A stretch of DNA of 39,094 nt from the NCBI GenBank assembly GCA_016218305.1, contig JACREJ010000105.1, forward strand, positions 1-39,094, given 5' to 3'. How positions within the stretch are numbered: position 1 is the stretch's first letter; every line of letters begins with the position of its first letter. Source of the stretch: Gemmatimonadota bacterium. Lineage in GTDB: Bacteria; Gemmatimonadota; Gemmatimonadetes; Gemmatimonadales; Gemmatimonadaceae. This document shows, piece by piece, positions 1,462 to 31,442 of this stretch. A model generated the notes under the pieces. It made no database searches and was not told the DNA's origin. It saw only the letters and a program-made list of their open reading frames with translations. The position numbers were made by a program, and so were the translations under genes.

Positions 1462-1618
1462 CTTGCCGCTTCGCCGCGGATCACGCGGATGGGGGCGGAT
1501 TTCGCGGATGATGCATGAGGGGGTCCGCCACGCTGGCCTCGCGGATGCACGCACTTCCCTATGGTGTGATCCGCGTCCAGCCGCCCCTGCTCCGCGCAAT
1601 CCGCGGCGAAGCGGCAAG
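1462..1618. repeat. Palindromic repeat element between convergent genes (CGCGGAT family, copy 1)
   Basis: The 236-base gap between the hydrolase and kinase stops holds no gene. It is filled by an element bounded by a perfect 19-bp inverted repeat: 1462-1480 (CTTGCCGCTTCGCCGCGGA) pairs with 1600-1618. Inside each arm, CGCGGAT-type units recur about every 9-11 bp (1476-1510 on one side, complementary ATCCGCG/TCCGCG units at 1569-1605). The middle contains GCCACGCTGGCC. A second copy in inverted orientation lies at 31303-31442. It could act as a bidirectional transcription terminator; that is inference from position and symmetry. Confidence 0.8.
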
Positions 1619-1639
1619 GCAGTCGAGCTCAGCGATTCG

Positions 1640-3238
1640 TCAGCGGCTTGTAGCGTTTGCTCGCCGATCCCACCACTGAGCGGCGTCGTGCGACGTCCAC
1701 GGCAGCTCCGCACGCACCGCGGCCAGTTCAGTTGCGAGCACCTCCGCGGTGAGAGGCCGGTCCTCGGGGCGTTTGGCGAGACAGCGCAGTATGAGCTGAT
1801 CGAGCGCCGGAGGCACGGGGAAAGGCGCCGCGACGCTGGGCGGTGTCGGGACGCGCTCGAGATGCGCGGCCAGCATGCCCATCGCCGACTCGCTCTCGAA
1901 GACCAGCCGACCGGCGAGCAGCCAGTACGCGACGCACCCCAGCGCGTAGATATCTGCCCGGCCATCCAGCGCGGCGTCGGCGTGGATCGCTTCGGGGGCC
2001 AGGAAGGCCGGGGTTCCCATGATCACGTCAGCACGTGTGTCGCGGCCTGACCCAGGCGCGGTATTCGATACGATGCGCTTGGCGAGCCCAAAGTCGAGGA
2101 TCTTCACGACGTCGCACTCGAAGGCCTCCCGACACAGGTAGATGTTTGCCGGCTTCACGTCGCGGTGAATCACCCCGCGGCGATGTGCCTCGGACAGCGA
2201 TGCACAGGCCTGCACGAGGATGTGCACCGCACGAGCGGCAGGCATCGGGCCGTCGCGGCGCACGATCTCCTCGAGGTCCATCCCGTCCAGCAATTCCATC
2301 ACGTAGTAGAGCGTGCCGGCCTGTGTCATGCCAAAGTCGTACAGCTGCACCGTGTGCCGGGACTGCAGGCTCGCGATCGCCTGCGCCTCACGTTCAAATC
2401 GGATCGCGGCCTGCCGGGCCAGCGCCGGCTCGCTGTCCAGCGCGTCGGCGCGGATGATCTTGATGGCGGCGGGACGCGCGAGCGTATGGTGCGAGGCGCG
2501 CCACACTTCGCCCATGCCGCCCTGTCCGAGGCGCGATTCCAGGCGATAGCTCCCCAGCTCGCGGGCGCGCTGCACATCCTGCCCCAGTTCGTGCACGACC
2601 AGCGCGGCGATGTACGTCATGCTTGCGCCGACGAGATACGGCAGCACGAACAGCACGAAGAAGTCCGCCGCCGACACGAGCGGCGCCCGGTTGTATGACA
2701 ATTCAACGAGGTACCCGATGGCGGGCGCCGTCGCGGAGGCGATCAACGCGAGCACCGCTTCGCGCACCGGCGCCTGCACCAGCACCGTGAAGAAGAGCGT
2801 CCACGGAATCACCCACGACATCCCGATGCGGTCGAGTTCCATGGCGCCGGAGGGAATGCCCCAATACGCACTGTAGGATGAGCCGAAGGTAATCGCGAAG
2901 CTGATGACGACTTCGTAGAGCAACCCGGCGCGGATGATCCTCGCCGGCGAGGAACCTGGCTGCCGCGCGACGAAGAAGATCACCAGGGAGGCCACGACGG
3001 TCACCACCGGCGGCGCCCACTGCCACGGATTGTCCAGCTCGGTCCTGAGACTCCCCTGCACGAGATTGCTGACCAGCCACAGTGTCAGGCTGACCACGAG
3101 CAACACGAGCGAGACCAGCTGCAGCCGCCGCACCGAACGCGGCCGGAGGTCGAGCGACGGCGAGCTCGCCGTCTCGAGAACTTGCCCCCGAGCGGAGATT
3201 GGCTTCGACACCACGAGGTCCTTCCAGTCAGGCATCAT
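1640..3238 (-). CDS. Membrane-anchored serine/threonine protein kinase
   Basis: 532 residues. The N-terminal ~220 residues hold about six hydrophobic segments (roughly 40-63, 73-95, 103-120, 140-160, 165-180, 190-215), followed by a cytoplasmic Hanks-type kinase domain (about 228-515). The glycine-rich loop is LGQGGMGEVW, the ATP-binding lysine K260 lies in AAIKII, the catalytic loop is HRDVKPAN (D360), the metal-binding motif is DFG (D382), and the activation segment ends at LAPEA. All catalytic residues are present, so it should be active. Most bacterial kinases of this kind place a single membrane helix after the kinase; here a multi-pass domain comes first and may sense a membrane signal. 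Two adjacent ATG codons lie at the start, with GGAAG just upstream. Only 21 bases separate it from the glycosyltransferase gene upstream, so it is probably the last gene of that operon. Confidence 0.92.
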   Translation of the reverse strand: MMPDWKDLVVSKPISARGQVLETASSPSLDLRPRSVRRLQLVSLVLLVVSLTLWLVSNLVQGSLRTELDNPWQWAPPVVTVVASLVIFFVARQPGSSPARIIRAGLLYEVVISFAITFGSSYSAYWGIPSGAMELDRIGMSWVIPWTLFFTVLVQAPVREAVLALIASATAPAIGYLVELSYNRAPLVSAADFFVLFVLPYLVGASMTYIAALVVHELGQDVQRARELGSYRLESRLGQGGMGEVWRASHHTLARPAAIKIIRADALDSEPALARQAAIRFEREAQAIASLQSRHTVQLYDFGMTQAGTLYYVMELLDGMDLEEIVRRDGPMPAARAVHILVQACASLSEAHRRGVIHRDVKPANIYLCREAFECDVVKILDFGLAKRIVSNTAPGSGRDTRADVIMGTPAFLAPEAIHADAALDGRADIYALGCVAYWLLAGRLVFESESAMGMLAAHLERVPTPPSVAAPFPVPPALDQLILRCLAKRPEDRPLTAEVLATELAAVRAELPWTSHDAAQWWDRRANATSR

Positions 3239-3259
3239 GGCTTCCGTCCTCCGGCCCGA

Positions 3260-4807
3260 TCATCCCCAATGCGGGCGCTCCGCCTTCCAGACCTCTTGCA
3301 TGGTCAGCTTGGGATTCCGGCAGAGCAGGATGGGCACGTCCTGCTCCTCGGGCACGCCCCATCGGTTCTTCACCCTCGCGACGATGTCGAGCGAGGCGCA
3401 TCCCAGTTCTTCCAGGTCGCTGCGTGTCACGCCGAGGAAGATCACGATCTTGCCCGGGCGCTCGCCGGGGCCGAAGAGGTAGAAACTCCCGGCCAGGCTG
3501 ACGACGCGAGGGAGCCCGAGTTCCCGGCCATAGAACTCCAGCGCACCGGCCTGCCCATAGTTGTTCCCGTACAGCACGACCTCGGCTTGGTCGGCGGGCG
3601 GCAGGCTTCCGTACACGGCAGCCACGGCCTCCGCTTTCTCACGCCAGCCGGTCATGTCGGCGTAGTCCTGCGGCAGGGCCAGCACCTCGCCCCAGTTCGT
3701 GCGCACGCCGGCGGTCACCCCGGTCGCCGCTGAATACCGAGCCATCGGCTCCGGCGGAATCAACGGAAGGCCGAACGGGAGTGTGGCCACGCCGAACAGC
3801 ACCGTGAGTCCAACCACGCCCCACGAGAACATCCGACGCCATATCGGCCGCGCGATCTGCTCGACCCAGACGCCGGCGCCCGCAAACAGCACCGGATAGA
3901 TGGGTCCGACGTAATACGACTTACCCTTTGTCACGGCGTAGAGCGCAAATGCGGCAATCGCGCTCCAGCCGACCACACGATGCCGAGCCAGCACGGGTGA
4001 CCTGACAAACGCCGCGGCGCCAGCCACGGCGAAGACGAAGGCTGCCGGGCCCCACAGCAGCTGCTCGCCGACGAAGCCGGAGAGAGTGATCCGATTGAGC
4101 TGCCCCTGCTTCAGGCCGGCCATCTGGTCAAACAGCGGCCAGTCGAGCGCAATCTGCCCGATGATGCTCGGCGCGCCGAGAAACAGGGCGATGCCAAGGG
4201 CCATCCACGGACCGACAGTGAGCAGGTCGCGCCGTCGCGTCAGGAGCACGCCGGCGAGGACCGCGGCACCAAAGAAGAGAATCGAGAACTTGCTGAGCAA
4301 TCCCAGTCCACCGGCAACACCAAGCAGGATCCACCACTTCCGATCACCCGAGTTTCCGAGCCGCACGAGCGCGTAGAAGCCCAGCATCCACCAGAACTGG
4401 TCAACGACCACCGGCTGAAAGAGCGACGCCGAGCGCAGGAAGAGAGGATTGAAGATCGCGGCGACCGCGGTGAGCACCTGGGCGGTTCGTCCGCCTCCCA
4501 TCTCACGGGCGGTCAAGACCGCGAGCCAAACGATGGCCGTGCCCACCAGCGCCGGCACCACGCGATACGCGAGCAAGGACGATCCGGCGACGGCGCGCAC
4601 CGCCTCCGCCAGCATCGCGATCATGGGCGGGAAGTCCATGCGCAGCAGCTGGAGGTGGCTTCCCATCGCGAAATAGAGGAACTCGTCGCGATGGAACTCA
4701 TATGGCGTGAACGCCGCGGCGGCGACGTGCATTGCCAGCTTGAACGCGACGAGCGCCAGCGCAACCACCGCCAGTTCGGTCCGGCCCCGTTCGGCATCAG
4801 CCGCCAT
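3260..4807 (-). CDS. GT39/ArnT-like multi-pass glycosyltransferase
   Basis: About 515 residues, with many hydrophobic segments over most of its length. After the first helix comes the first periplasmic loop motif HRDEFLYFAMG (H39-E42), followed by DFPP; acidic residues in this loop are the catalytic signature of the PMT/ArnT superfamily (glycosyltransferase family 39), which moves sugars from polyprenyl-phosphate donors onto proteins or lipid A-like acceptors in the periplasm. The ~140 residues at the C-terminus are soluble. Start choice: a GTG at 4813 extends the frame by two codons, but AAGGAG sits seven bases before ATG 4807 and only one base before the GTG, so 4807 is chosen. It follows the cytidylyltransferase gene after 16 bases and precedes the kinase gene by 21. 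Donor and acceptor are unknown. Confidence 0.85.
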   Translation of the reverse strand: MAADAERGRTELAVVALALVAFKLAMHVAAAAFTPYEFHRDEFLYFAMGSHLQLLRMDFPPMIAMLAEAVRAVAGSSLLAYRVVPALVGTAIVWLAVLTAREMGGGRTAQVLTAVAAIFNPLFLRSASLFQPVVVDQFWWMLGFYALVRLGNSGDRKWWILLGVAGGLGLLSKFSILFFGAAVLAGVLLTRRRDLLTVGPWMALGIALFLGAPSIIGQIALDWPLFDQMAGLKQGQLNRITLSGFVGEQLLWGPAAFVFAVAGAAAFVRSPVLARHRVVGWSAIAAFALYAVTKGKSYYVGPIYPVLFAGAGVWVEQIARPIWRRMFSWGVVGLTVLFGVATLPFGLPLIPPEPMARYSAATGVTAGVRTNWGEVLALPQDYADMTGWREKAEAVAAVYGSLPPADQAEVVLYGNNYGQAGALEFYGRELGLPRVVSLAGSFYLFGPGERPGKIVIFLGVTRSDLEELGCASLDIVARVKNRWGVPEEQDVPILLCRNPKLTMQEVWKAERPHWG

Positions 4808-4823
4808 CGGCACGCTCCTTCGG

Positions 4824-6361: not shown

Positions 6362-6409
6362 CGCGGGAGGGTGTCGGGCGAAGGGACGCTGAGCGTAACT
6401 TCCACGGCT

Positions 6410-7584: not shown

Positions 7585-7597
7585 GGAGCGCCGTGCA

Positions 7598-13073: not shown

Positions 13074-13385
13074 ATGACGATGTCAGGTAAGATGCGCGCT
13101 GCCTTGCGCGCTGAATGCAACGGTCTCCAGGCGACGGTTCACGTCGGCAAGGAAGGGCTTACGCAGACCCTCATCCAGTCGCTTGACGATGCGCTTCGCA
13201 CGCGCGAACTGGTGAAGGTGGCGCTCAACCGCTCCGTGGACGTCAGCGCGAAGGCCGCCGCCGCCGATCTCGCCGAGGCCGTGGGAGCCGAGGTCATCCA
13301 GACAATCGGGAAGACGGCGACGCTATACCGGCAGAATCCCGAGATCGAGGGAAAGAAGGGAGATGCGCCTCCATGGCGCAGATAA
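13074..13385 (+). CDS. yhbY: YhbY family RNA-binding protein (CRM domain)
   Basis: 103 residues, nearly all one CRM (CRS1-YhbY) domain: HVGKEGLTQTLIQSLDDAL is the GxxG-type RNA-binding loop and helix, then ELVKVAL and VIQTIGKTATLYR close the domain. In E. coli YhbY associates with pre-50S ribosomal particles. AGGAG lies five bases before the ATG. The last codons run into the period-11 repeat element: the TAA stop at 13383 lies just before the left arm. Confidence 0.93.
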   Translation: MTMSGKMRAALRAECNGLQATVHVGKEGLTQTLIQSLDDALRTRELVKVALNRSVDVSAKAAAADLAEAVGAEVIQTIGKTATLYRQNPEIEGKKGDAPPWRR

Positions 13386-13390
13386 ACAAC

Positions 13391-13498
13391 AGAGACACAA
13401 CCGCGAGACAACAGAGAAGAAACAGAGAGGGCGCCGCAGCTTGCGACGCCCTCTGTTGTCTATCTGTTGTTTCTCTGTTGTCTCTCTGTTGTTTCTCT
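13391..13498. repeat. Period-11 repeat element with inverted arms and hairpin core
   Basis: Left arm: three degenerate 11-mers of type AGAGAAACAAC (13391-13423). Core: AGAGGGCG (13426-13433) pairs with CGCCCTCT (13447-13454), with an inner CGCA-GCT-TGCG stem. Right arm: four 11-mers of type GTTGTTTCTCT (13455-13498), the complement of the left arm. It joins the convergent yhbY and serine hydrolase genes and overlaps the end of the latter. The strong core hairpin flanked by long pairing arms makes a bidirectional terminator role likely. A one-armed relative lies at 26420-26463. Confidence 0.85.
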
Positions 13499-15174: not shown

Positions 15175-15540
15175 CTACAGGCGTTCTGGATTGACTACGG
15201 TGCGGTCGCCGCCGGCATTGCCGGTGTTGAGCGTGCCCGCGGGCTCGAACAACAGAATGCACACCTCCTCCGCCGCCACGGGCCGGTGCTCCACGCCGCG
15301 CGGCACGATGAGAAATTCGCCCTCGCGCAGCGCAACTGTGCGATCGCGGAACTGCATCTCGAACGACCCGCTGATCACGAGGAAGAGCTCGTCCTCCTCG
15401 TCGTGCGCGTGCCAGATGAACTCGCCCTGGAACTTGGCGAGCTTCACGTGCTGTCCGTTGAGCTCGCCCACGATGCGCGGGCTCCAGTGCTCGCGGAGCA
15501 CCGCGAGCTTCTCGGCGATGACGACCTTGTCGGGAATCAT
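15175..15540 (-). CDS. Cupin domain protein
   Basis: 121 residues from ATG 15540, whose first bases overlap the TGA of the Mo-subunit gene as ATGA (15537-15540); this overlap decides the start. A single cupin_2 barrel: first motif WHAHDEEDELFLVISGSFEM (two His plus a Glu as metal ligands), second motif GEFLIVPRGVEHRPVA with the fourth ligand His. It is probably a small metal-binding protein or sugar/aldehyde-binding enzyme. Its tight coupling to the hydroxylase subunit suggests a role in the same pathway, but the reaction cannot be inferred. Confidence 0.88.
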   Translation of the reverse strand: MIPDKVVIAEKLAVLREHWSPRIVGELNGQHVKLAKFQGEFIWHAHDEEDELFLVISGSFEMQFRDRTVALREGEFLIVPRGVEHRPVAAEEVCILLFEPAGTLNTGNAGGDRTVVNPERL

Positions 15541-17813
15541 TCGGCGAGCGCGCCGAGCACGCGCCATGGAGTGAGCGGCAGCGCGCAGACCTCGACGCCA
15601 AGCGCATCGGCGACGGCAGCGGCGATGGCGGGCGCCGTGGGAATGATCGGCGGCTCGGCGATGCCACGCGCCCCGACATGGTTGGCCGCGGGGTCCGCGC
15701 CGTCGAGGAACGACGCGTCGATGGCGGGAATGTCGGCCATCGTCGGGATCATGTAGTCGTGCAGGTTGGCGTTGAGCGTCACGCCGCGCGCGCGGTCGAT
15801 GTGGCGCTCCTCGAAGAGCGCGTACCCGATGCCCTGGATGATGCCGCCGTGCAGCTGGCTCTCGGCGAGCGCGGGATTGATGATGCGTCCCGCGTCATGG
15901 ACCGCGACGACGCGCACCACGCGCACGACACCCGTCTCGGCGTCCACCTCGACCTCCGCGAACTGCGCGCCGACCGTGACCACGGCGAGTTCCGGATTCG
16001 GGCCGCGCGAGCCGCGGCCGACGATCTGGATGTTGCCGAGTTGGCGGCAGAGGTCGCCAAAAGAGAGCGACGCGCCGTCGGTTGAGACAATGTGCGAGTC
16101 GCGGGTGGACAACACGACGAGCGGCAGCCCCATCATCTGCGCGGCCGCTTCGAGCAGCTGCATCTTGGCATCTTCCGCCGCCATGCGAACGGCGGGGCCC
16201 ACGCTCGGCGTGGTCATGGAACCCCACGAGTTGCCCGTGTAGGGGAGGCGCTCGGTGTCGCCGATGACGGCGCGGACCGTGTCGAACCGCGCGCCGAGCG
16301 CTTCCGCAGCGATCTGCGCCAGGATGGTGCGCGACCCGGTGCCGAGGTCCTGCGTGCCGGCGAGCACATCAACCGAGCCGTCGCTGTTGATGCGGACGTG
16401 GGCGTAGGAGGGTGGGCCGCCGCCGGTGGGCCAGGTTTGGGCGGCGACGCCGTAGCCGCGCTTCAGGCGGCTGACGGGAGACGGGAGACGGGAGACGGGA
16501 GAGTGCCAGCTGAAGCGCCTCATCCCCTCGGCGTAACACTCATCCAGACGGTTGCCGCTGAACTCACGGTCGGCGCGTTCGTCGCGGGTGGCGAGGTTCT
16601 TGAGGCGGAGCACGACAGGGTCCATCTGCAGGGCGCGCGCGAGCGCGTTCATGGCGCCCTCGAGCGCGAAGGCGCCCTCCACATAACCGGGGCCGCGGAA
16701 GGCCTGCATGCCGCTGGCGTTGATGTAGACGCAGGTCTCGCTCGTGCGGACGTTCGGGCACGCGTACATCTCGTGGAAGATCTGGGCGGGACCCCCCTCC
16801 CAACCGCTGATGCCGAGCGGGATACGCGCGTCGAGGACGAGCGCGGTGAGCGTGCCGTCCTTGCGCGCGGCGATGGTGACCTTCTGCACCGTCGCGGGAC
16901 GGTTGCCGCTGTCGGTCTGTTCCGCGCGACGATCGTTGACGCAGCGCACCGGCGCCCCGAGCGTGCGCGCGAACAGCGCGGCGGTGTACGTGTGCGCACC
17001 GGCGCCGTTCTTGGCGCCGAAGCCGCCGCCCATGTAGTCCTTGATCACGCGCACTTTCGCCTGCGGCAGCCCCAGCGCCTTGGCGACGTCGCTGCGCACG
17101 CGGAAGATCCCCTGCGTGGACTCCCAGACGGTGAGCTGGTCATCGTTCCACTCGCAGACGGCGCCGTGCGTCTCGAGCGCGGAGTGCAGCGCCACCTGCG
17201 TGCGATACTCACGCGTGATCGTCACCTCCGCCTCCGCCAGGCCGCGGGCGACATCGCCGCGCTGCACGATGTCGGGCTCGGTGGTGTTGCCGGCCTTTCG
17301 CACCTGCGGCGCGTCGGGGGCGATGGCGTCATCCACGGTCACCGCGTGCGGTGCGGCCTCAATGACCAGCGACGCGGCGATGACGCGAGCGGCGCGCTCG
17401 GCGGTGTCGAGCGATTCGGCGCAGACCGCGGCCAGCGGCTGGCCGGCGTACGACACCTCGCGCTTGAAGAGCCGCGTGCCGGCGGGCGCGTCGCCGATGC
17501 CCATCACGGCACGTACGCCGGGCAGGCTGCGCGCGGTCTCAAGATCAATGGCGGTGAGCGTCCCCTTGGCCCGCGGTGCGCGGACGATCACCGCGTACAG
17601 CATGCCCGGCCGCACGATGTCGGCCGTGTAGCGTGCGCGCCCGGTGACCTTCTCGAACGCGTCCACGCGCAGCGGACTGGTGCCGACGATCGAAAGCGGC
17701 GTGTCGGCGGTCCATGGCGCTGGTTCGAACGCCGGCACCTCGACGACACGGGTCTCCGTGCGTCCCTCGACCTCGACGGTCGTCTGGACGAATCGTGTGC
17801 GCTCGCGGCTCAC
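15537..17813 (-). CDS. Molybdenum-binding subunit of xanthine-oxidase-family aldehyde oxidoreductase (PaoC-like)
   Basis: 758 residues from GTG 17813, which overlaps the TGA of the [2Fe-2S] subunit as GTGA (17810-17813). Domains: aldehyde oxidase a/b hammerhead (about 30-150, VTGRARYTADI), then the two molybdopterin-binding domains. Signature segments are GGGFGAKNG, QAFRGPGYVEGAFALE and, near the C-terminus, GIAEPPIIPTAP with the catalytic Glu720. With the [2Fe-2S] subunit and the PaoB-like subunit at 5.4-6.4 kb it would make a three-subunit MCD-type hydroxylase acting on aldehydes or heterocycles. Oddly, residues 437-451 (HSPVSRLPSPVSRLK) are encoded by a heptamer repeat array and interrupt an otherwise ordinary sequence; the frame is kept. 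The substrate is unknown. Confidence 0.9.
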   Translation of the reverse strand: MSRERTRFVQTTVEVEGRTETRVVEVPAFEPAPWTADTPLSIVGTSPLRVDAFEKVTGRARYTADIVRPGMLYAVIVRAPRAKGTLTAIDLETARSLPGVRAVMGIGDAPAGTRLFKREVSYAGQPLAAVCAESLDTAERAARVIAASLVIEAAPHAVTVDDAIAPDAPQVRKAGNTTEPDIVQRGDVARGLAEAEVTITREYRTQVALHSALETHGAVCEWNDDQLTVWESTQGIFRVRSDVAKALGLPQAKVRVIKDYMGGGFGAKNGAGAHTYTAALFARTLGAPVRCVNDRRAEQTDSGNRPATVQKVTIAARKDGTLTALVLDARIPLGISGWEGGPAQIFHEMYACPNVRTSETCVYINASGMQAFRGPGYVEGAFALEGAMNALARALQMDPVVLRLKNLATRDERADREFSGNRLDECYAEGMRRFSWHSPVSRLPSPVSRLKRGYGVAAQTWPTGGGPPSYAHVRINSDGSVDVLAGTQDLGTGSRTILAQIAAEALGARFDTVRAVIGDTERLPYTGNSWGSMTTPSVGPAVRMAAEDAKMQLLEAAAQMMGLPLVVLSTRDSHIVSTDGASLSFGDLCRQLGNIQIVGRGSRGPNPELAVVTVGAQFAEVEVDAETGVVRVVRVVAVHDAGRIINPALAESQLHGGIIQGIGYALFEERHIDRARGVTLNANLHDYMIPTMADIPAIDASFLDGADPAANHVGARGIAEPPIIPTAPAIAAAVADALGVEVCALPLTPWRVLGALAE
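16473..16503 (+). repeat. GACGGGA heptamer array inside the Mo-subunit gene
   Basis: 4.4 perfect copies of GACGGGA in tandem. Read on the coding (minus) strand they give TCCCGTC repeats that translate to SPVSRLP-type sequence. The same heptamer type occurs between genes at 18704-18735 and, as GACGGTA/T/C, at 19426-19454. Confidence 0.9.
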
Positions 17814-18700: not shown

Positions 18701-18703
18701 CAG

Positions 18704-18801
18704 ATGGGAGATGGGAGATGGGAGACGGGAGATGGAAGATGAAGCGAGCCCGACGGTAGCCGTCGGGCTCGTTGTTTATCCATCTCCCATCTCCCATCGG
18801 T
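18704..18801. repeat. Heptamer repeat element with inverted arms and terminator core
   Basis: Left arm: GGGAGAT/GGGAGAC heptamers from 18704 to 18735. Core: a 12-bp perfect stem CGAGCCCGACGG (18745-18756) with loop TAG and CCGTCGGGCTCG (18760-18771), followed by TTGTTTAT, a good intrinsic terminator for the ferredoxin. Right arm: CCATCTCCCATCTCCCAT (18780-18797), the complement of the left arm. The element fills the gap between the convergent ferredoxin and methyltransferase stops. Confidence 0.88.
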
Positions 18802-18805
18802 ATCC

Positions 18806-19417
18806 CTAGAACAGCCCCCCCGGAAAATACCGATCCTTCCCCACGAACACGGCCAGCAGTGCGATGTACTGCAGGAACGTGCTCATCTCGCTCCTCCACG
18901 CCTCGGCCCAGAAGAACTCGCCGCCGACCTGTCCTGACCCGGCGGTCGGGATCCAGCGCGGCGTCCGGCGCTTGAACGCCAGGTACTCCTCGCCGAAGAT
19001 CGACTCGAGCACGCCTTCCTCGTAGCGCACGATGAAGAAGTACTCCACGGCGAAGAGCAGCGTGGCCACGGGGAGGAACCACCACACCCCGCTGAGCGCG
19101 ACGAAGCCCATCCAGAGGAAGTAGTTACCGTTGTACAGCGGGTTGCGGCTCAGGGCAAACGGTCCGTGCGTCACGAGCTTCTGCACGTTGCGCGACCGGC
19201 GGCGCGTCACGGTGCCGGCCGTGGCGACGCCCCACAGCCGCCATCCCTCGCCCAGGACGAACAGCAGGACGAAGACGACGATGCCGAAGCGCGTGATGCC
19301 GCCCGGTGCGAGCAGCGGGACGAGCAGAAACGGCACGGGAAGCCAGCCGCGGTTGCGGAACAGCACGGCGCCGATGCGCGCGGGGCGGGAGGTTTCGGAG
19401 GCGGAGAGTTCGGCCAA
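18806..19417 (-). CDS. Isoprenylcysteine carboxyl methyltransferase (ICMT)-like membrane protein
   Basis: 203 residues with about four or five hydrophobic segments. The C-terminal half carries the ICMT/PEMT family signature: HGPFALSRNPLYNGNYFLWMG (Arg-Asn-Pro-x-Tyr) and RYEEGVLESIFGEEYLAFKRRTPRWIP, which form the S-adenosylmethionine-binding site. Bacterial members methylate small or lipid-like substrates in the membrane, mostly unknown. After the family domain there is a hydrophilic stretch (SGQVGGEFFWAEAWRSEM) and a last hydrophobic helix. The TTG at 19417 is an uncertain start with no ribosome binding site; the heptamer array at 19426-19454 begins eight bases upstream, so the repeat may have altered the 5' end. 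Confidence 0.85.
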   Translation of the reverse strand: MAELSASETSRPARIGAVLFRNRGWLPVPFLLVPLLAPGGITRFGIVVFVLLFVLGEGWRLWGVATAGTVTRRRSRNVQKLVTHGPFALSRNPLYNGNYFLWMGFVALSGVWWFLPVATLLFAVEYFFIVRYEEGVLESIFGEEYLAFKRRTPRWIPTAGSGQVGGEFFWAEAWRSEMSTFLQYIALLAVFVGKDRYFPGGLF

Positions 19418-19425
19418 GGGATGGT

Positions 19426-19454
19426 GACGGTAGACGGTTGACGGTAGACGGTCG
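19426..19454 (+). repeat. GACGGTA heptamer array between genes
   Basis: Four tandem heptamers GACGGTA, GACGGTT, GACGGTA, GACGGTC in the 54-base gap between two co-directional minus-strand genes. It is related to the GACGGGA array at 16473. No inverted partner and no hairpin core are seen. Confidence 0.88.
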
Positions 19455-19471
19455 AATGATAGCGCCGCTGC

Positions 19472-21639: not shown

Positions 21640-22839
21640 GTGAGCCCCAAGAGCGCAGCACCGACGGTGCAGTACCTCGATTCGGACGATGCCGTCGGAG
21701 AATTCCTCGCGGGAATCCGCGGCACCCCGCTGCTGGCGCTCGACACCGAAGGGGCGAGCTTCCACCGGTATATCGATCGCATCTACCTGCTCCAGCTCTC
21801 CACGCGCGACGTCCACGCCATCATTGATCCGCTCCCGATTGCGCCTCCCGCCGCACTCGGCGCGCTGCTCGAGGACCCGAAGGTCGAGGTGGTCTTCCAC
21901 GATGCGGACTACGACCTCCGCCTCCTGCATCAGGACTACGGCTGGCACGTCCGGCGCATCTTCGACACCCGCATCGCGTCCCAGCTGCTGGGCGTCAAGG
22001 CGTTCGGTCTCGCCGCGCTGCTGGAGCAGCATTTCGGCGTGAAGCTCGACAAGAAGCACCAGCGCGCCGACTGGTCCATGCGCCCGCTCACCAAGGGCAT
22101 GCTCGACTATGCGGCCCAGGACACGTTGCACCTGCTCCAGCTGCGCGACGTGCTGAAGGAGCAGCTGGAGCGCAAGGAACGGTGGAGCTGGGCGCAGGAG
22201 GAATTCGAGCGGCTCGAAGGGACGCGCTGGGCGCCGGAGGATGCGGGCGAGTCGTTCCTGCGCATCAAGGGCGCGCGCGACCTGACGCGTCGGGAACTAG
22301 CCGTGATGCGCGAGGTGACCCGGTGGCGCGATGCCGCCGCTCTCACGCTCGACCGGGCGACGTTCCGCGTCGTGGCAAACGAGGTGCTGCTGGAGATTTC
22401 GCGGCTGCAGCCGACCACGGTCGATGCCCTTGGCGCGATCAAGGGCATGCCGCGCGGCATGATGGAGCGCGCCGGCCACGAGGTGCTGCAGGCCGTGCAG
22501 CGCGGCCTCGCGGTGCCCGAGGCGCAGCTGCCGCGCTTCCCGAAGTCCACGCGGTGGGAGAAGGACCCCGAGTTCGACGACAAGGTCGGGCGCCTCAAGG
22601 CGGTGCGCGACGACGCGGCGCGACGGCTGGACCTCGACCCCGGCGTGCTCGGCTCGCGCGAACGCCTCGAGGCGGTGGCGCGGCTCGTGCCGCGGTCCGT
22701 GGAAGAGCTCGCGGCGATCCCCGAACTGCGCCGCTGGCAGGTGGCCGAGATGGGAGAGGCCTTCGTGAAGGCGCTGAGCGGCTTCAAGCCCAAGGCGAAG
22801 TCGGCGCCGAAGACTGACTCGCCGTATCTCGAGTCGTAG
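21640..22839 (+). CDS. rnd: Ribonuclease D
   Basis: 399 residues. A 3'-5' exoribonuclease of the DEDDy class that trims tRNA and other stable RNA 3' ends. Exo I: LALDTEGA (D35, E37); Exo II: HDADYDLRLL (D92); Exo III: Y157-A-A-Q-D161. The tryptophan-rich segment DWSMRPL precedes Exo III. HRDC-type helical domains follow (about 210-295 and 315-385). The length agrees with E. coli RNase D (about 375). GTG start at 21640 with AGGAAG upstream. It converges on the SufT-like gene across a repeat element. Confidence 0.93.
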   Translation: MSPKSAAPTVQYLDSDDAVGEFLAGIRGTPLLALDTEGASFHRYIDRIYLLQLSTRDVHAIIDPLPIAPPAALGALLEDPKVEVVFHDADYDLRLLHQDYGWHVRRIFDTRIASQLLGVKAFGLAALLEQHFGVKLDKKHQRADWSMRPLTKGMLDYAAQDTLHLLQLRDVLKEQLERKERWSWAQEEFERLEGTRWAPEDAGESFLRIKGARDLTRRELAVMREVTRWRDAAALTLDRATFRVVANEVLLEISRLQPTTVDALGAIKGMPRGMMERAGHEVLQAVQRGLAVPEAQLPRFPKSTRWEKDPEFDDKVGRLKAVRDDAARRLDLDPGVLGSRERLEAVARLVPRSVEELAAIPELRRWQVAEMGEAFVKALSGFKPKAKSAPKTDSPYLES

Positions 22840-22851
22840 GCGTCACTGATA

Positions 22852-22996
22852 CCACGAAAGGCGCGACTGATACCGCGAAGGGCGAAGAGCGCGAAGAGCC
22901 GCGAAGAAATCACTGGGGGAACTGCGTCGCCGCAGTTCCCCCGAGTCGTTGCCGTTCTTCGTGACCCTTCGCGCCCGTCGTCCTTCGCGGTGGCAG
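22852..22996. repeat. GCGAAG repeat element with inverted arms and hairpin core
   Basis: Left arm: CGCGAAG/GCGAAGAG-type units from about 22852 to 22907. Core: GGGGGAACTGCG (22915-22926), loop TCGC, CGCAGTTCCCCC (22931-22942), a perfect 12-bp stem. Right arm: the complementary CTTCG-type units CTTCGTGACCCTTCGCG...CCTTCGCGGT to about 22991. It joins the convergent RNase D and SufT-like genes and ends one base before the latter's stop. Confidence 0.85.
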
Positions 22997-22997
22997 G

Positions 22998-23363
22998 TCA
23001 GAACCCGAGGTACGTCCGCACCCGCGGCTCGATCCGATCGGGCGTCCACGGCGGCGACCAGACGATGTTGACCGTCGCGCTGGTGACGCCGGGAATCTCC
23101 TGCACCTGCGTTGTCGCGTCGTGGAGAAGCTCAGGCCCCGACGGGCAGGCGGGCGAGGTGAGCGACATCTCGACCGTGACGCTCGTTCCTTCCACGTGGA
23201 TGGCGTAGACGAGGCCAAGGTCCACGATGTTGAGGTTGAGTTCCGGGTCCTTCACGCGGCGCAGCGCGAGCTTGACGAGGTCCTCGGTCACCGCGTCCGC
23301 GCCGGTCGGGGCGGCGCCCGCGCCGGGGGGAGTCACGGCGGGCGGTGTCATTTCGTCGGTCAT
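22998..23363 (-). CDS. MIP18/SufT-type iron-sulfur cluster assembly factor (DUF59)
   Basis: 121 residues. After a Pro/Ala-rich N-terminus of about 25 residues comes the DUF59 domain: KDPELNLNIVDLGLVYAIHV, then VTVEMSLTSPACPSG with the family's conserved reactive cysteine, and VWSPPWTPDRI at the end. Such proteins help insert Fe-S clusters into target proteins. AGGAG lies six bases before the ATG. Several Fe-S proteins are encoded in the window, but no other Suf/Isc genes, so partners are elsewhere. The serine hydrolase gene ends 63 bases upstream. Confidence 0.92.
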   Translation of the reverse strand: MTDEMTPPAVTPPGAGAAPTGADAVTEDLVKLALRRVKDPELNLNIVDLGLVYAIHVEGTSVTVEMSLTSPACPSGPELLHDATTQVQEIPGVTSATVNIVWSPPWTPDRIEPRVRTYLGF

Positions 23364-25007: not shown

Positions 25008-25158
25008 CGAATCAACCGGGCGGCTGAACCGGTACGGAAGTCGCGGGAGGGGGAAGGACTAGCATCCCAGCCTTCTACACGCAAGACGAGTACTTTCACC
25101 CACGGTCACCCTCTGGCAACCATTCCGGCGAGCCGCGTGACTCATCTAGCGAACGTTC

Positions 25159-25728: not shown

Positions 25729-26413
25729 ACGACTGGCCGCCTTGGTGGACGAGACGGCGATGCCCGATGAGGCGTCGCACCTCGCTGCCTGCGCGGAATG
25801 CACCGACGAACTGACCGCGCACCGCCGTCTGGTGCGCCTGGCGCTCGCCGAAGCGTCCCGCGAGGGACCGCCGCTCAACGACTGGGCCGCGCTGGGCGCG
25901 ATGCTCAAGGCCGAAGGGATCGTGTCTACGATGCCGATGGCGCCGGCGCGCTCGCCGCGGCTCCAGTGGGCGTTGCGAATTGCAGCGGGGCTGGTGCTGG
26001 TGGCGGGGAGCGCGCTCGCGGGCCGGTGGAGCGCCGGTGTGGACTTCCCGGCGCCGCCGCAGCAGGCCGCCTCGACGGCGCCCGCGGCTGGGGCGGCGGC
26101 CGCGCCGGTCTTTGCGTCGCCGCAGGCGGCGATGCAGGTGCTGACGTCATCGCAGCAGCAGTACTCCGACGCGGCCGCGTATCTGGCGGCACAGGACACG
26201 AGCTCGCACTTCATCGGGCTGAACGTCAACACGTACCGCGCGCGGCTCACCGCGCTCGACAACATCGTGGCGTCCACCCGCACCGCGCTCTACCAGGCCC
26301 CGCAGGATCCGGTGCTCAACCAGTACTACCTGTCGGCGATGGCGGCGAGAGAAGCCACACTGAAACAGTATGAAGCAGCGCTGCCGGCGAAGCAGGCGCT
26401 GGAGCGCTATTAG
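25709..26413 (+). CDS. Zinc-finger-type anti-sigma factor, membrane-bound
   Basis: 234 residues. The cytoplasmic N-terminus carries the ZAS signature H24-x3-C28-x2-C31 (SHLAACAECTDEL), which binds zinc and the sigma factor. One membrane helix lies at about 87-105 (WALRIAAGLVLVAGSALAG), then an Ala/Pro-rich stretch and a helical, Gln-rich extracytoplasmic domain. The ATG at 25709 (AGGA eight bases upstream) lies inside the 3' end of the sigma gene, a standard arrangement for co-translation with its target. The frame is open to 25679, but the earlier ATG would add only an unlikely basic extension. A hairpin spans its stop codon. Confidence 0.9.
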   Translation: MPHISPERLAALVDETAMPDEASHLAACAECTDELTAHRRLVRLALAEASREGPPLNDWAALGAMLKAEGIVSTMPMAPARSPRLQWALRIAAGLVLVAGSALAGRWSAGVDFPAPPQQAASTAPAAGAAAAPVFASPQAAMQVLTSSQQQYSDAAAYLAAQDTSSHFIGLNVNTYRARLTALDNIVASTRTALYQAPQDPVLNQYYLSAMAAREATLKQYEAALPAKQALERY

Positions 26414-26463
26414 CGCTCCAGAGAGACAACAGAGAAACAACAGAGAAACAACAGAGAAACAAC
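26401..26463 (+). repeat. Hairpin over the anti-sigma stop plus four period-11 repeats
   Basis: GGAGCGCT-ATT-AGCGCTCC (26401-26419) is a perfect 8-bp hairpin that contains the TAG stop. It is followed directly by four 11-mers: AGAGAGACAAC and three identical AGAGAAACAAC (26420-26463). The array is the left arm of the element type at 13391 with no right arm, and it lies between two co-directional genes. The hairpin could reduce read-through into the PDZ gene. Confidence 0.85.
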
Positions 26464-26491
26464 AGAAGCACCTTTCCAGGGATTTGATGAA

Positions 26492-27679
26492 ATGATGGGT
26501 TTCCTAAGGTTCATGCGACGAATCGTGCCGGGGGCGCTGGTGGTGAGCGCGTCGCTGGGCGCGGCGATTGGCGTTGCGGGCGCGCAGCAGACGGCGCCGG
26601 CGCCGCGTGCCAGGCAGCATGTGACCGTGCGCGTGGACACGAGCGATGCGACCAGGGTGACGGTGGTGCTCGAGGGGCTCGACAGCCTGCTACGCACCCT
26701 GACCCAGTCGCGCATTCTCGAGGAGCGCATCGGCATGGCGTTGCGCGAGTACGGCGCCTCGCAGGCCAACGCAGACCGTCGGCGCGCGCTCGAGGAGCAG
26801 CTGCAGGAGCTGGCCGAGAAGAACGTGCAGCTGATGTCGAAGATCCAGCTGGCCTGCTCGAACAAGAAGAGCTCGGAATTCGCCCCCGAGGGCTACCTGG
26901 GCGTCACGTTCAATATTACCGGGACCGTGAAACGCGAGATGCACGGCCCCGAGATCTACCGTTTTGACGAACCGCCCGAGATCATCTCCGTGGAATCCGG
27001 GTCGCCCGCCGATCGCGCCAGTATTCGCCGGGGTGACCGTATCGTTGCGCTGGACGGACGCGACGTGGTGGGACGCGACGTGATCCTGTCACAGTACCTC
27101 GTGCCCGGACGGAAGTTGCCGGTGCGCATCATCCGTGACGGGCGTGAGCAGGACGTGACGGTGCTCGTGCAGAAGCGCCCCGAGGGATTTGGGGACCAGT
27201 GCACCGATCTCGACCTGTGGCTGGCGCCAGTGCGTGTCGGCGGCCAGGCGCTGAAGTCGCCTGATGGCAGGACCTTCACCTGGGTGCGCCCGCCGGCGCC
27301 TCCCAAGACAGCCAGGACGCCCGCTCCCGCCGCTCCTGCCGCTCCGGCGGCCCCCAGCGTCTGGTCGTTCGACGCGCCGCCGCCGGTGGCGATCTCCGGC
27401 TTCTCGAGCATCGTGGCCGGGGCTCAGCTCACCACGCTGACCGACGACTTCAAGGAAGTGCTGGGTGCCGATGCCGGCGTGCTGGTGCAGCGCGTCGTTC
27501 CGGAATCCCCCGCCGCCATCGCCGGGCTGAAGGGCGGTGACGTGATCGTCGAGGCCGCTGACCGCCCGGTGACGAGCGCGCGGCTGCTGCAGCGGATGAT
27601 CGGCGACAGCGAGCAGAGCACGCTGAAGCTCAAGGTGGTGCGAAAGGGGAAGGCGAGGACGGTGTGGCTGAAGTGGTAG
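26492..27679 (+). CDS. Exported protein with coiled coil and two PDZ domains
   Basis: 395 residues from the first of two adjacent ATG codons; ATG 26513 (MRRIVPGALVV) is an alternative that gives a neater signal peptide ending near AGAQQ. After the signal, a helical region (about 50-122, ERIGMALREYGASQ...LEEQLQELAEKN) is likely a coiled coil. PDZ 1 spans about 130-230 (GYLGVTFNI, SGSPADRASIRRGDRIVALDG). A Pro/Ala linker follows (about 268-292), then PDZ 2 (about 300-395, ESPAAIAGLKGGDVIVEAADRPV). There is no protease domain. It is the third gene of the sigma/anti-sigma cluster and might be a substrate-binding or sensing partner in the envelope stress response; this is inferred from position only. 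Confidence 0.87.
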   Translation: MMGFLRFMRRIVPGALVVSASLGAAIGVAGAQQTAPAPRARQHVTVRVDTSDATRVTVVLEGLDSLLRTLTQSRILEERIGMALREYGASQANADRRRALEEQLQELAEKNVQLMSKIQLACSNKKSSEFAPEGYLGVTFNITGTVKREMHGPEIYRFDEPPEIISVESGSPADRASIRRGDRIVALDGRDVVGRDVILSQYLVPGRKLPVRIIRDGREQDVTVLVQKRPEGFGDQCTDLDLWLAPVRVGGQALKSPDGRTFTWVRPPAPPKTARTPAPAAPAAPAAPSVWSFDAPPPVAISGFSSIVAGAQLTTLTDDFKEVLGADAGVLVQRVVPESPAAIAGLKGGDVIVEAADRPVTSARLLQRMIGDSEQSTLKLKVVRKGKARTVWLKW

Positions 27680-27764
27680 CATAAGACAGAATGCCACGGA
27701 GTCCGACAGCGTCCGGCCGTCACTGCCGCAGGCTGTCGGACTCTGTCGCATGCTGTCGTATGCT
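27678..27764. repeat. Decamer repeat element with inverted arms (GACAG family)
   Basis: Left arm 27678-27711 starts on the last two bases of the PDZ gene stop. Right arm 27731-27764 is its reverse complement with about four mismatches in 34. Each arm is built of 10-mers (ACAGAATGCC, ACGGAGTCCG; CTGTCGGACT, CTGTCGCATG, CTGTCGTATG). A 7-bp palindrome TGAAGCC-TAC-GGCTTCA follows directly and covers the end of the matrixin gene. It lies between convergent genes; likely a bidirectional terminator. Confidence 0.85.
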
Positions 27765-27769
27765 GAAGC

Positions 27770-28570
27770 CTACGGCTTCACCACCGACCCCGGCGGAATG
27801 CTGTACACCAGCTGCACCGTGTGCTCATCGGCCACGCTCAGGTCCCGCACGCGTACCCGCGCCGCCATGATGCTGCGCTCGTCCTGGGTGTGGTCGAGGC
27901 CGAGCACGTGCCCGATCTCGTGCAGCGTGATCACGTAGATGGCGTCGGGCTCGAGTGGCGTGCCGCTCTGGTGGTGCAACGCGACCTCGATGGATGAGCC
28001 CACGATCCACCAGTGCTGGTCGCGCGTCCACCGCGTGCGTCCCGAGATGGGCATGTCGAACTTGTCCACCCACACCACCGGAATGTCGCTGCGCGCGGAG
28101 TCGACCACGAACGTGAACGCCACGGGCACGCCGGCGCGCGTCCAGCGCTCAAACGCCTCCCTCGCCCGCACCGGATAGGAGGCGTGGAAGTCGGGGAGGT
28201 TGCTGTGCGGCTGGATCCAGATGCGGAGCGGTTCGATCTGGCGGTCAGGCCAGCGGGCGTTGTTGTCGCCGCGCTGCAGCAGGATCTCGCGGATGTAGGT
28301 GCCCGACTCGCCGTCGGCGAGGCGGCGCTGGATCTCGGCGAGGTCGCGCCGCGGCGCCGGCGATGCGGACGACCGCACGCTGACGAGATCGGCCTCGCCC
28401 GGCACGAGGGTTGGTGCCACGGCGCTCGTGGACTCCGGCGACACGGTCGACGAATCGACCAGGGCAGCGACCGCGGGCAACGGACGCGGCGGGACGCGGC
28501 GCGCCTGCACGACGATGAACGCGGCCATGCCGAGGAGGAGCAGCGCGAGCACCGCCACGGTACGGTTCAC
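27770..28570 (-). CDS. Matrixin-like (M10) zinc metalloprotease
   Basis: 266 residues from GTG 28570, which overlaps the TGA of the alpha/beta hydrolase gene as GTGA (28567-28570). A signal anchor or signal peptide (VAVLALLLLGMAAFIVVQA) leads to a Ser/Pro-rich linker (to about 85) and a metzincin domain: H217-E-I-G-H221-VLGLDH227 is the complete zinc motif HExxHxxGxxH, and RSIM shortly after is the Met-turn. RIWIQP and AFERWTRAGVPVAFTFV are typical of the N-terminal strand and helix of this fold. No cysteine-switch propeptide is seen. It should be a periplasmic or membrane-tethered protease. Confidence 0.9.
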   Translation of the reverse strand: MNRTVAVLALLLLGMAAFIVVQARRVPPRPLPAVAALVDSSTVSPESTSAVAPTLVPGEADLVSVRSSASPAPRRDLAEIQRRLADGESGTYIREILLQRGDNNARWPDRQIEPLRIWIQPHSNLPDFHASYPVRAREAFERWTRAGVPVAFTFVVDSARSDIPVVWVDKFDMPISGRTRWTRDQHWWIVGSSIEVALHHQSGTPLEPDAIYVITLHEIGHVLGLDHTQDERSIMAARVRVRDLSVADEHTVQLVYSIPPGSVVKP

Positions 28571-29463: not shown

Positions 29464-29555
29464 TCAGCGGTGCGGAGCGCGGCGTGATAGACGGCGAATT
29501 GCGACGCGGTCATGGCAGCGTGGAAAGTACGCGCTCGTCCCTGTACCCCGCACCC

Positions 29556-29598
29556 TTGCCTCGTCCCCCGCCGCGACATATATCTCAGTACAGAGATA
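29556..29598 (+). promoter_or_regulatory. Promoter with an 18-bp palindromic operator over the -10 region
   Basis: TTGCCT (29556-29561), 17-base spacer, TATATC (29579-29584). The palindrome TATCTCAGTACAGAGATA (29581-29598) overlaps the -10 hexamer and the expected transcription start, and its right half touches the monooxygenase ATG at 29600. Only the two A positions beside the central GTAC break the symmetry. A bound protein would block initiation, so repression is likely. No regulator gene is adjacent. Confidence 0.6.
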
Positions 29599-29599
29599 A

Positions 29600-30643
29600 A
29601 TGGATGGCGTTCTGGAACTCGGCATTTACAGTTTTGCGGAAACCACGATCGACCCGGCGACTGGTCAGCGCGCGAGCGCAGCGCAGCGCCTGCACGACCT
29701 GCTGGAAGAGATCGCGCTCGCCGACGCGGTGGGGCTGGATGTGTACGGCGTCGGAGAGCACCACCGCCCCGATTTCTCCGTCTCCACCCCGGCGGTGGTC
29801 CTCGCCGCGGCGGCCGCCCGCACCAATCGCATCCGCCTGTCGAGCGCCGTGTCGGTGCTCAGCTCCGACGATCCGGTGCGCGTCTTCCAGGAATTCAGCA
29901 CGCTCGACCTGCTCTCCGGCGGCCGCGCCGAGATCATGGCGGGGCGCGGCTCGTTCATCGAGTCATTCCCGCTCTTCGGGTATGATCTCAACGACTACGA
30001 CGCGCTGTTCGCGGAGAAGCTCGACCTGCTGCTCGCCCTGCGCGCCAACGAGCGCGTAACGTGGCAGGGGACGCACCGGGCCCCGTTGAAGGACCAACCG
30101 GTCTACCCGCGTCCGCTGCAGGACCCGCTCCCGGTGTGGATTGCGATCGGCGGCACGCCGCAGTCGGCGGTGCGCGCCGGGACGCTGGGCCTGCCGCTCG
30201 CCATCGCCATTATCGGCGGCGAACCGGCGCGATTCACGCCGTTCGTTCAGATCTACCGTGAGGCGTGGGCGCGCGCGGGGCACGACCCCGCCAGGGCGCG
30301 CGTCAGCATCAACTCGCACGGTTTCATCGCTGACACGGAGGCTGAGGCCGCCGACAGCTTCTGGCCCCGGTACGCGGACGTGATGGGACGCATCGGGCGG
30401 GAACGCGGCTGGCCGCCGCCCACCCGGGCCCACTTCGACCGGGAGCGCTCGCCGCGCGGCGCGCTCCTGCTCGGCAGCCCGCAGCAGGTGATCGACAAGA
30501 TCCTCTACGAACACGAACTGTTTGGGATGGACCGTTTCCTGCTCCAGCTGAGCGTCGGCACGATGCCGCACGCACAGATGCTGCGAGCCATCGAACTCTA
30601 CGGCACCGTGATCGCCCCAGCGGTGCGGAAGGCCTTGGCATGA
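29600..30643 (+). CDS. LLM class flavin-dependent monooxygenase
   Basis: 347 residues covering the bacterial luciferase-like TIM barrel. It begins with [12 protein letters not shown], then GEHHRPDF (the His-bearing strand of the family), [40 protein letters not shown], the flavin-phosphate-binding core, and [17 protein letters not shown]. The enzyme would oxygenate a small organic compound using FMNH2 from a partner. The partner is encoded directly downstream: its ATG overlaps this stop as ATGA. Transcription would start about nine bases before the ATG, so the leader is very short. The substrate is unknown. Confidence 0.92.
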
Positions 30644-31221
30644 CCGAGCAACCGATCGTCCTTCAGGTGATCATCTGCAGCACGCGTCCCGGGCGCAAAG
30701 GCCCCGCCGTCGCCCATTGGGCCATGGAGCAGGCGACGGCCCACGGCAAGTTCGCCGCGGAGCTGGTGGACCTCGCCGACTTCAACCTGCCCATCCTCGA
30801 CGAGGTGGCGCATCCGCGGCTCGCGCAATACGAGCACGAGCATACGAAGCGCTGGAGCGCGTCGGTGAAGCGTGCCGACGCCTACGTCTTCGTGCTGCCG
30901 GAGTACGACTTCTCCATGCCGGCCTCGTTGCTCAATGCGCTCCAGTGCATCTACCAGGAGTGGACGTACAAGCCGGCGGCGTTCGTGTCCTATGGCGGGG
31001 AGTCGGGCGGCCTGCGCAGCGTGCAGATGACGCGCCAGGTGCTCAGCACCTTCAAGATGCCGGCGATGCTCGAGGTCGTCTCGATCCACCAGGTGGCGAA
31101 GCACATCGATGCCGCAACGGGCGCCTTCGTGCCGGAGGAGAGCTACCCCAAGAAGGCCAAGGCCATGCTCGATGAGCTGCACAAGTGGGCGGTGGCTCTG
31201 AAACCGATGCGAGCGACATGA
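30640..31221 (+). CDS. NADPH-dependent FMN reductase
   Basis: 193 residues, flavodoxin-like fold: phosphate-binding loop [14 protein letters not shown] after the first strand, [16 protein letters not shown] (the conserved P-E-Y-N/D-x-S-x-P motif) near residue 86, and [19 protein letters not shown] near 125. It is the likely source of reduced FMN for the luciferase-like monooxygenase, which is made by the overlapping gene upstream. The pair makes a typical two-component flavin monooxygenase. No other gene follows for 348 bases. Confidence 0.92.
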
Positions 31222-31227
31222 GGTGCA

Positions 31228-31267
31228 GGGGGGCAGGGAACAGGGTGTGGTGCGGGGGATAGGGGGC
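31228..31267 (+). other. G-rich stretch after the flavin reductase gene
   Basis: Five runs of three to six G separated by 2-8 bases (GGGGGG, GGG, GGG, GGGGG, GGGGG) directly after the stop codon. A G-quadruplex in DNA or RNA is possible, though one loop is longer than usual. It may be another degenerate repeat family. Confidence 0.5.
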
Positions 31268-31302
31268 AGAGTTCGGTGAAGGGAGAACTGCCTTAGCTGC
31301 CT

Positions 31303-31442
31303 TGCCGCGGATGACGCGGATCGGAAACGGATGGACGCGGATCAGGCCTCTTGGGGGAACTCCTCGCGCGGGCTGGGTCAGCGTGGCGAACTCCCCAAGG
31401 CATGATCCGCGAGATCCGCCCGCATCCGCGTCATCCGCGGCA
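31303..31442. repeat. Palindromic repeat element (CGCGGAT family, copy 2)
   Basis: The 348-base gap between the flavin reductase and the next gene holds this element and no gene. Outer 19-bp perfect inverted repeat: TGCCGCGGATGACGCGGAT (31303-31321) and its complement (31424-31442). The left arm is four 10-mers of type CGCGGATxxx (31306-31345). The centre holds CTTGGGG (31350-31356) and CCCCAAG (31393-31399) as an inner stem. Read on the minus strand, the whole element, including GCCACGCTG in its middle, aligns with copy 1 at 1462-1618. Unlike the others it lies between co-directional genes. Confidence 0.85.

Follow-up and report, generated by a model that had tools for sequence, protein, structure and literature searches.

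Short intergenic repeats of bacteria are usually dismissed as slippage noise. The short tandemly repeated repetitive (STRR) sequences of cyanobacteria are short tandem heptamers, and we know of no inverted arms for them. In bidirectional intrinsic terminators, two convergent genes share a hairpin that has a purine-rich and a pyrimidine-rich side. Here we analyze six elements in a 39,094-nucleotide contig of a Gemmatimonadota bacterium (JACREJ010000105.1 of assembly GCA_016218305.1, forward strand; "the window" throughout). Each sets an arm of short repeated words against the same words in reverse complement. Unlike bidirectional intrinsic terminators, these elements have long tandem-repeat arms outside the hairpin, and single arms occur between tandem genes. 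The reading we favor, with a probability of about 0.45, is that they are 3' arrays anchored to stop codons, which at convergent gene ends would form two-way, terminator-like stems.

The closest published relatives are the GGGAATC heptamers of Xanthomonas. The accessible portion of PMC4692102 describes them as tandem, 89-93% intergenic and nearer the 5' neighbouring open reading frame (ORF), with 16% between convergent ORFs and with 70 and 75 inverted array pairs in two genomes; the study treats a single word for its ability to form G-quadruplexes, and it also mentions the tandem heptanucleotides of Calothrix. Tandem units and inverted array pairs are thus common to Xanthomonas and the present arrays. 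The first-pass annotation of the window, made from its letters alone, had hinted that inverted arms were new for heptamer arrays; given the published Xanthomonas pairs, that was too strong. Inverted pairs of tandem heptamers near the 5' neighbouring gene are already known, and gene-end arrays are a variant of that kind. What differs is the unit, since GGGAATC/GGGANTN is not among the 7-, 8-, 9/10-, 11- and 13-mers found here; a stop-codon phase, a hairpin core and a switch of family, all seen here, are not described for Xanthomonas in that portion of the paper. The TAACTGA repeats of marine Beggiatoaceae are likewise intergenic heptamers in tandem that favor one orientation relative to genes; in the accessible part of PMC4679880, however, they stand mostly before start codons, with one inverted repeat in 170 sets. 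The open literature that we searched yielded no paper on Gemmatimonadetes, Gemmatimonas or Gemmatimonadota and repeats and, as far as the accessible parts of the sources go, none that describes arms of several families, a phase relative to stop codons or the replacement of words at orthologous ends.

The source is a 2.0-Mb metagenome-assembled genome (MAG) of 116 contigs, the window being one of them; judged by GcvP, the closest relative with a name is PNKL01000007.1, a MAG of Gemmatimonas sp. (94%), and the next matches are mostly Gemmatimonadetes MAGs. From this genome, labelled G000, we used 439 kb (69% GC), namely the window and 20 stretches of 20 kb, in which 405 genes were called, with 32 convergent, 318 tandem and 34 divergent junctions. 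Ten congeners are labelled G001 to G010, and 772 kb of their DNA was analyzed: 372 kb of blocks cut around two anchor genes, which contain mutual orthologs, and the initial 400 kb of one G001 contig. Together these are the three genus samples. A unit-agnostic array detector was applied to gaps of 40-600 bp; two convergent gaps and one tandem gap longer than 600 bp were excluded.

Family A, whose unit is the 11-mer AGAGARACAAC, was located relative to genes at 51 arrays. Twenty-one lay in convergent gaps, all in sense polarity. Of those in tandem gaps, 17 stood on the stop side (14 agreeing with this polarity, 3 opposite) and 4 on the start side (1 agreeing, 3 opposite); 4 more were in divergent gaps, 4 were intragenic and 1 was at an edge. 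Nearly all of the convergent and tandem stop-side arrays (36 of 38) begin no more than 13 nt from the stop codon. At 41 family A gene ends, several of them mutually orthologous, the first motif lay 4 nt past TAG in 7 cases and 5 nt past TAA (7) or TGA (1) in 8, and at -11 to 20 nt in the remaining 26. TGA stops made up 7 of these 41 ends, versus 542 of 1012 overall. The number of copies was four in 19 of the 21 arrays of this genome. Arms also divided by gap type: among 610 gaps, the convergent ones held 11 two-armed and 3 one-armed cases by our counting rule, the tandem ones 14 with a sense arm only, 2 with both arms and 4 with an antisense arm only, and the divergent ones 3.

The word itself is confined to the genus as far as our searches extend. 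A two-unit 11-mer pattern had 151 matches at no more than one mismatch in this genome and occurred in eight of the ten congeners: four have over 100 matches, G007 has 80, G002 has 21, and G004 and G009 have a single match each. It had none in 49 genomes of other genera. A backward-pattern control scored nearly as high because the 11-mer reads almost the same in mirror image; where the count was 0, so was the control. Are these recognition words, such as the DNA uptake sequences (DUS) of Neisseriaceae, which are often paired as terminators in Neisseria? Species dialects and inverted pairs associated with terminators at gene ends do resemble DUS, as described in the accessible part of PMC3630211, but DUS are there single words, common within genes and without tandem arrays. 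Exact 11-mers adjoined another unit in 69 of 70 cases in the 439 kb, and the lone one was outside genes. We rejected the uptake-sequence reading for family A on this count and regard uptake-like or other genome-wide recognition words as a highly improbable explanation of the arrays in general.

Enrichment at convergent 3' ends was not restricted to one word. Visual inspection of the 24 convergent gaps of at least 40 bp in this genome showed an array or words, a hairpin and the inverted array or words in 12 of them, in five wordings (11-mer, 7-mer, GCGAAG, CGCGGAT and CACAGAGG). The detector found arrays in 9/22 convergent, 26/117 tandem and 4/33 divergent gaps, where shuffles predicted 0.2, 0.8 and 0.2, and in 20 of 991 pieces of coding sequence; in the congener blocks the corresponding gap counts were 20/37, 15/97 and 8/63. 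Array pairs of the same period no more than 300 bp apart were inverted 27 times and direct 4 times in the three genus samples, and absent from shuffles. This genome contributed 9 inverted and no direct pairs and the congener blocks 15 and 1, with a right arm in L084 counted twice. Inverted arms occupied 15 of 91 convergent and 8 of 458 other gaps (Fisher p 1e-7). Both an excess at convergent 3' ends and symmetric arms, on which the first-pass annotation had staked its proposal, are thus present in this genome and the congener blocks.

At a few orthologous gene ends we observed that the plan persisted while the words did not. The hairpin at 18701-18805 is kept in congeners with other 7-mers: AGATGGG in G000, TAGACGG in G005, GGATGGC in G001, GGTGGAC in G010 and GGTAGAG in G004. 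G009 has AGATGGG-like words there, and G006 a 16-bp gap. The perm|HSP20 gap holds 11-mers in G000 and 7-mers of four wordings in five congeners (GATGGCC in G001 and G007, GACGGGA in G002, GATGTGG in G005, AGATGGC in G008). Its arms are mirrored with a unit similarity of 0.91-1.0 in 4 of 6 genomes and 0.71 in G008; those of G001, with periods 7 and 14, are not comparable, and the partner gene is missing at three further loci. The gcvP|gcvH gap was recovered at 9 of 11 genus loci, the other two being cut off; eight of the nine have gcvP-side arrays, six have units mirrored at 0.8 or more, and G004 has the hairpin only. We conclude that orthologous ends can retain the mirror plan through a change of unit, even one from 11-mers to 7-mers, which suggests that layout, rather than wording, is kept there.

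Perhaps mutation alone could produce such symmetry? Slippage would multiply words beside terminator hairpins, template switching would copy one arm onto the other, and gene ends would tolerate the result. Arms do agree in wording, units drift between species, and arm homogenization by template switching has been published for other systems, as far as the accessible parts of those sources go. Dialects offer a closer view. A 10-mer form of the family A word has 111 matches in G001, 106 in G010, 55 in G003, 28 in G009, 1-4 in G008, G004 and G005, and none in G000, G002, G006 and G007. In G010, where it coexists with the 11-mer, 11 of 12 inverted pairs were of a single dialect versus 5.8 expected, with mixed pairs expected at 6.2 of 12 (P 0.004, among the matches listed, 100 of 106 and 100 of 176). 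In the same genome, a 10-mer and an 11-mer array adjoin in the same orientation at G010:C16:26747-26890. For 7-mers, arms within 11 elements agreed at 0.88, versus 0.68 between different elements overall; within one genome, however, arms taken from different elements agreed at 0.94 (n=12), so that a genome-wide dialect suffices and local arm-to-arm homogenization is unsupported by the 7-mers. The first-pass annotation had offered slippage on a hairpin as one possible origin; slippage alone leaves unexplained why arrays lie close to stop codons, why those in tandem gaps have sense polarity, why this genome nearly always has four copies and why variation falls mostly at one position. Most family A arrays of tandem gaps also lack a second arm. 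The purely mutational explanation accounts for symmetry and not for position, polarity or copy number, and we consider it rather unlikely.

According to the reading we favor, a stop codon would be followed directly by a short tandem array, in G000 typically four 11-mers, whose mRNA is purine-rich, U-free and predicted to lack secondary structure. Between genes of the same direction there would mostly be one arm, acting as an intercistronic spacer in a transcript that the tandem genes may share. Convergent genes would each bring their own arm, the two facing across a locus-specific GC-rich hairpin, so that either transcribed strand could fold into one long stem, most likely a two-way terminator and 3'-end block that may protect the message. 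Words would be replaced while place, polarity and mirror plan were kept, giving species dialects. Of this, the sequences show the position, the polarity, the division into one-armed and two-armed forms, the predicted folding and, at a few orthologous ends, persistence with a replaced unit; termination or protection of 3' ends, co-transcription of the tandem genes and any recognizing factor are inferred. An extension of this proposal, which we think unlikely, is that the arrays mark gene ends: sense arrays of set length, anchored to the stop, would be read in RNA or DNA form by a factor whose specificity changes from species to species, and arrays at many unlinked gene ends would be rewritten in step with the mirror plan at convergent ends kept, a concerted evolution of 3' ends across the genome.

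Predicted folding separates one-armed from two-armed forms. Each of the six window elements folded better than every one of its 200 shuffles (z -7.7 to -10.4), while a single arm was unstructured (z -0.1). An array as such is thus unlikely to be a terminator; the hairpin with its facing arms may be one. The window elements contain a GC-rich hairpin, as an intrinsic terminator would. A loose scan, in which shuffles score alike, reported T-rich tails at the hairpins 13426-13454, 18745-18771 and 22915-22942, in each case for the minus strand alone. As regards G-quadruplexes, GGG runs occur only in AGATGGG-type words, and the family A word has none. An Rfam search of the window returned no family at gathering score.

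Single arms between tandem genes were followed at named junctions, the gene names coming from Pfam. After ftsA, the sense-only array precedes a strong fold of -41.5 kcal/mol; the others of these 14 arrays have 0 to -21.5 kcal/mol in the next 9-70 nt, all energies being given without shuffles, and several are followed directly by a start region. The nuoD|nuoE junction (L036:5713-5845) has an array in G000, G006 and G002, an ATGA overlap in G001, G005, G009 and G010, and a plain spacer in G003, G004 and G008; G007 gave no match. Against the two-way terminators or gene-end insulators that the first-pass annotation had thought possible, these single arms lie within the presumed nuo operon, which transcription should traverse. 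The junction variants constitute a natural test of translational coupling. In the ald|mreB gap (L047:15241-15607), a stop-side arm and hairpin are present in G000, G001, G002, G006 and G010. G000 and G006 alone also have an antisense arm, about 190 nt beyond, and G008 carries 7-mers.

Several observations and features of the sampling weigh against the stop-anchored reading. In the G001 sample, the strict detector found no excess of arrays at convergent gaps (4/32 vs 15/147), inverted arms in only 1 of 32 convergent gaps, and as many direct as inverted pairs (3 and 3). One convergent gap of that genome (L181:13394-13519) sets an 11-mer family A arm opposite a GCGAAG, C-type arm. The 7-mer arrays of tandem gaps, their polarity assigned by purine content without a fixed word, showed no preferred polarity: on the stop side 10 agreed and 9 were opposite, and on the start side 3 were opposite. 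Of the clear 7-mer arrays, 17 were intragenic and 9 were in divergent gaps, and the window's array at 19425-19452 runs against the gene-end rule. Congeners hold less strictly to four copies (16 of 33) and have two variable positions. In this genome, 43 inner 11-mer units vary mostly by A/G at one of 11 positions, as found with a motif that itself favors conservation at 8 of the 11. Terminator-like sites in the window were in no clear excess, numbering 8, where 7.9 were expected, and 10 in another scan, where 6.1 were expected (sd 2.9). At gcvP|gcvH the core was only slightly better conserved than the arms, 0.80 vs 0.75 and 0.72, in the eight species whose core our pattern matched (G003 is truncated, G004 gave no match and G001 was left out). 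Finally, the sampled contigs of this genome were picked among those with 11-mer matches and are not random, array counts include orthologs of a few loci, and genes were called by our own codon-usage script.

Beyond the genus, in 40 stretches (566 kb) from other genera and from other families of the order, each of the two samples had one inverted pair, in 1/10 and 1/7 convergent gaps. Arrays occupied 2/10 and 4/7 convergent, 14/91 and 14/82 tandem, and 4/21 and 2/15 divergent gaps. At gcvP|gcvH, 27 non-genus loci gave 19 gaps of at least 30 bp, four of 1-22 bp and four loci without partner, one of which, L119, is titled Eisenbacteria. Thirteen of the 19 gaps, two of which exceed 300 bp and may contain missed genes, folded at z < -4.5 (30 shuffles). 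Their words varied widely (GTTGACG, CACAGGG, GGCCCGCA, GGTGAGTT), and only 4 of 19 passed the mirrored-unit test at 0.8. The 46 gcvP|gcvH loci of other phyla were unusable as a control (40 without partner, 5 non-convergent, 1 with a gap of 0); a gene-agnostic scan of these loci, 365 kb in all, found 1 inverted and 0 direct pairs. Symmetric inverted arms thus recur in the genus and, by the strict detector, turn up only sporadically elsewhere in the phylum.

Could the elements instead be palindromes like miniature inverted-repeat transposable elements (MITEs) or repetitive extragenic palindromic (REP) sequences, copying themselves whole into gene ends while insertions elsewhere are lost? One family would fit this description. 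The F element of G001, built of CACGGAG words, is about 180 bp long and palindromic, with core and arms conserved over eight aligned convergent-gap copies in 400 kb; its ends, TTTTTCACCACGGAG and the complement, are terminal inverted repeats over many similar copies. An nhmmer profile placed it at about 20 sites in the G001 sample, including tandem gaps and one divergent gap, at two in the 439 kb of this genome (L045, L050) and at one in G002. An example is L186:5308-5506; others are in L173, L182, L183, L185-L188 and L192, densely in L185-L188. The RNase D gap holds an F element in G002, a GCGAAG element in G000 and only about 4-34 bp in 7 of 10 congeners. Like MITE and REP palindromes, the F element is dispersed, palindromic, mostly intergenic and conserved in sequence. 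By its sequence, family F is a dispersed palindrome with a conserved core, separate from the A and B arrays. Families C and E are perhaps dispersed palindromes sharing the gene-end niche: the core of Element 4 (family C) matches the F profile weakly (22921-22982, E 4e-4), and the likeness of family E to the F core was judged by eye only. Repeated words in the arms set the elements apart from MITE and REP sequences. In families A and B the hairpin centers differ from locus to locus, with no common center sequence; moreover, arms occur alone and the plan can stay while words change. The dispersing palindrome envisaged by the first-pass annotation thus fits family F, and possibly C and E, and does not fit A and B; as an explanation of the whole set we find it improbable. 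A further family of 13-mers (GATTGGGATTGC type; L033:10777-10988, L045:405-598, L032:18750-18911, L042:12045-12150) has arms inverted by eye and occupies tandem and divergent gaps, not tied to gene ends; by the unit test, the pair in L045 was not inverted (0.46).

The elements and arrays of the window itself are collected in Table 1. All six elements are present, and the view that they share one plan with unrelated units held up. Independent gene calls placed five of the six between convergent genes, one of the neighbours being a weak call. Seven of the first eight inverted repeats listed for the window (I1-I6, I8) fall in the five elements other than Element 3.

Table 1. Repeat elements and arrays of the window; z-scores are from RNA folding against 200 shuffles each.
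Feature	Coordinates	Strand	Units and form	Listed inverted repeat	Fold z (span)	Parts and context
Element 1	1462-1618		family E, CGCGGAT words, irregular spacing; long palindrome	I6	-7.9 (1466-1614)	convergent genes 3-1403(+) and 1640-3238(-)
Element 2	13379-13498		family A, 11-mer AGAGARACAAC	I1	-10.4	left arm 13379-13428, hairpin 13426-13454, right arm 13451-13498; left gene 13074-13385 (weak call)
Element 3	18702-18801		family B, 7-mer AGATGGG	I14, I15	-9.0 (18704-18801)	left arm 18702-18741, hairpin 18745-18771, right arm 18780-18798
Element 4	22838-22996		family C, GCGAAG words	I3	-8.1 (22852-22996)	hairpin core 22915-22942; RNase D-like gene (+) and gene 22998-23363(-)
Element 5	27678-27764		10-mer words like AGAATACGAC, close to family A	I2	-7.7	genes 26525-27679(+) and 27770-28570(-)
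Element 6	31295-31448		family E, CGCGGAT words	I8	-8.9 (31303-31442)	not convergent; plus-strand genes on both sides (end 31221, start 31570)
Single-armed array	26419-26466	+	family A, sense polarity		-0.1 (26414-26470)	5 nt past stop at 26413; next called start 58 nt further
Single-armed array	19425-19452	+	7-mer GACGGTA, polarity contrary to gene-end rule
7-mer array	16473-16502	+	GACGGGA x4.3			inside minus-strand gene 15537-17813

The units were first thought to be of fixed length. This was evident at 13391 (11), at 18704 (7) and in the left arm of the element at 22852 (9). At 27678-27764, Tandem Repeats Finder (TRF) reported the right arm alone (4.3 ten-mers, 75% matches), at 31303-31442 again only the right arm (period 9), and in 1462-1618 no array; these three are thus palindromes with irregular word spacing. 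Elements 1 and 6 resemble each other (E 5.5e-16), and Element 5 has a counterpart in G001 (L079:8231-8312, E 1.5e-8). The right arm of Element 2 overlaps the final codons of the minus-strand gene, whose stop is at 13460. At 13460-13498, as at L078:11810 and L087:12817, the array provides the last codons and the stop, a gene end turned into repeat.

Single-armed copies elsewhere in the window had also been proposed, and all three were found, the one at 16473-16502 within a gene. An array is present at the place orthologous to 26419-26466 in G001, G002, G005, G007 and G010, and in G009 (L086) as judged by likeness of the C-terminus. In the region 19367-19471, a 7-mer array holds its position in 7 congeners, each with other 7-mers.

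These arrays allow the same gene ends to be compared across species, with layout and position kept and the word replaced, sometimes by one of another unit length. This makes it possible to test what maintains bacterial 3' ends, be it selection for form, a mutational engine or a recognizing factor, and the elements provide a natural set of convergent-gene boundaries for studying termination in GC-rich genomes.

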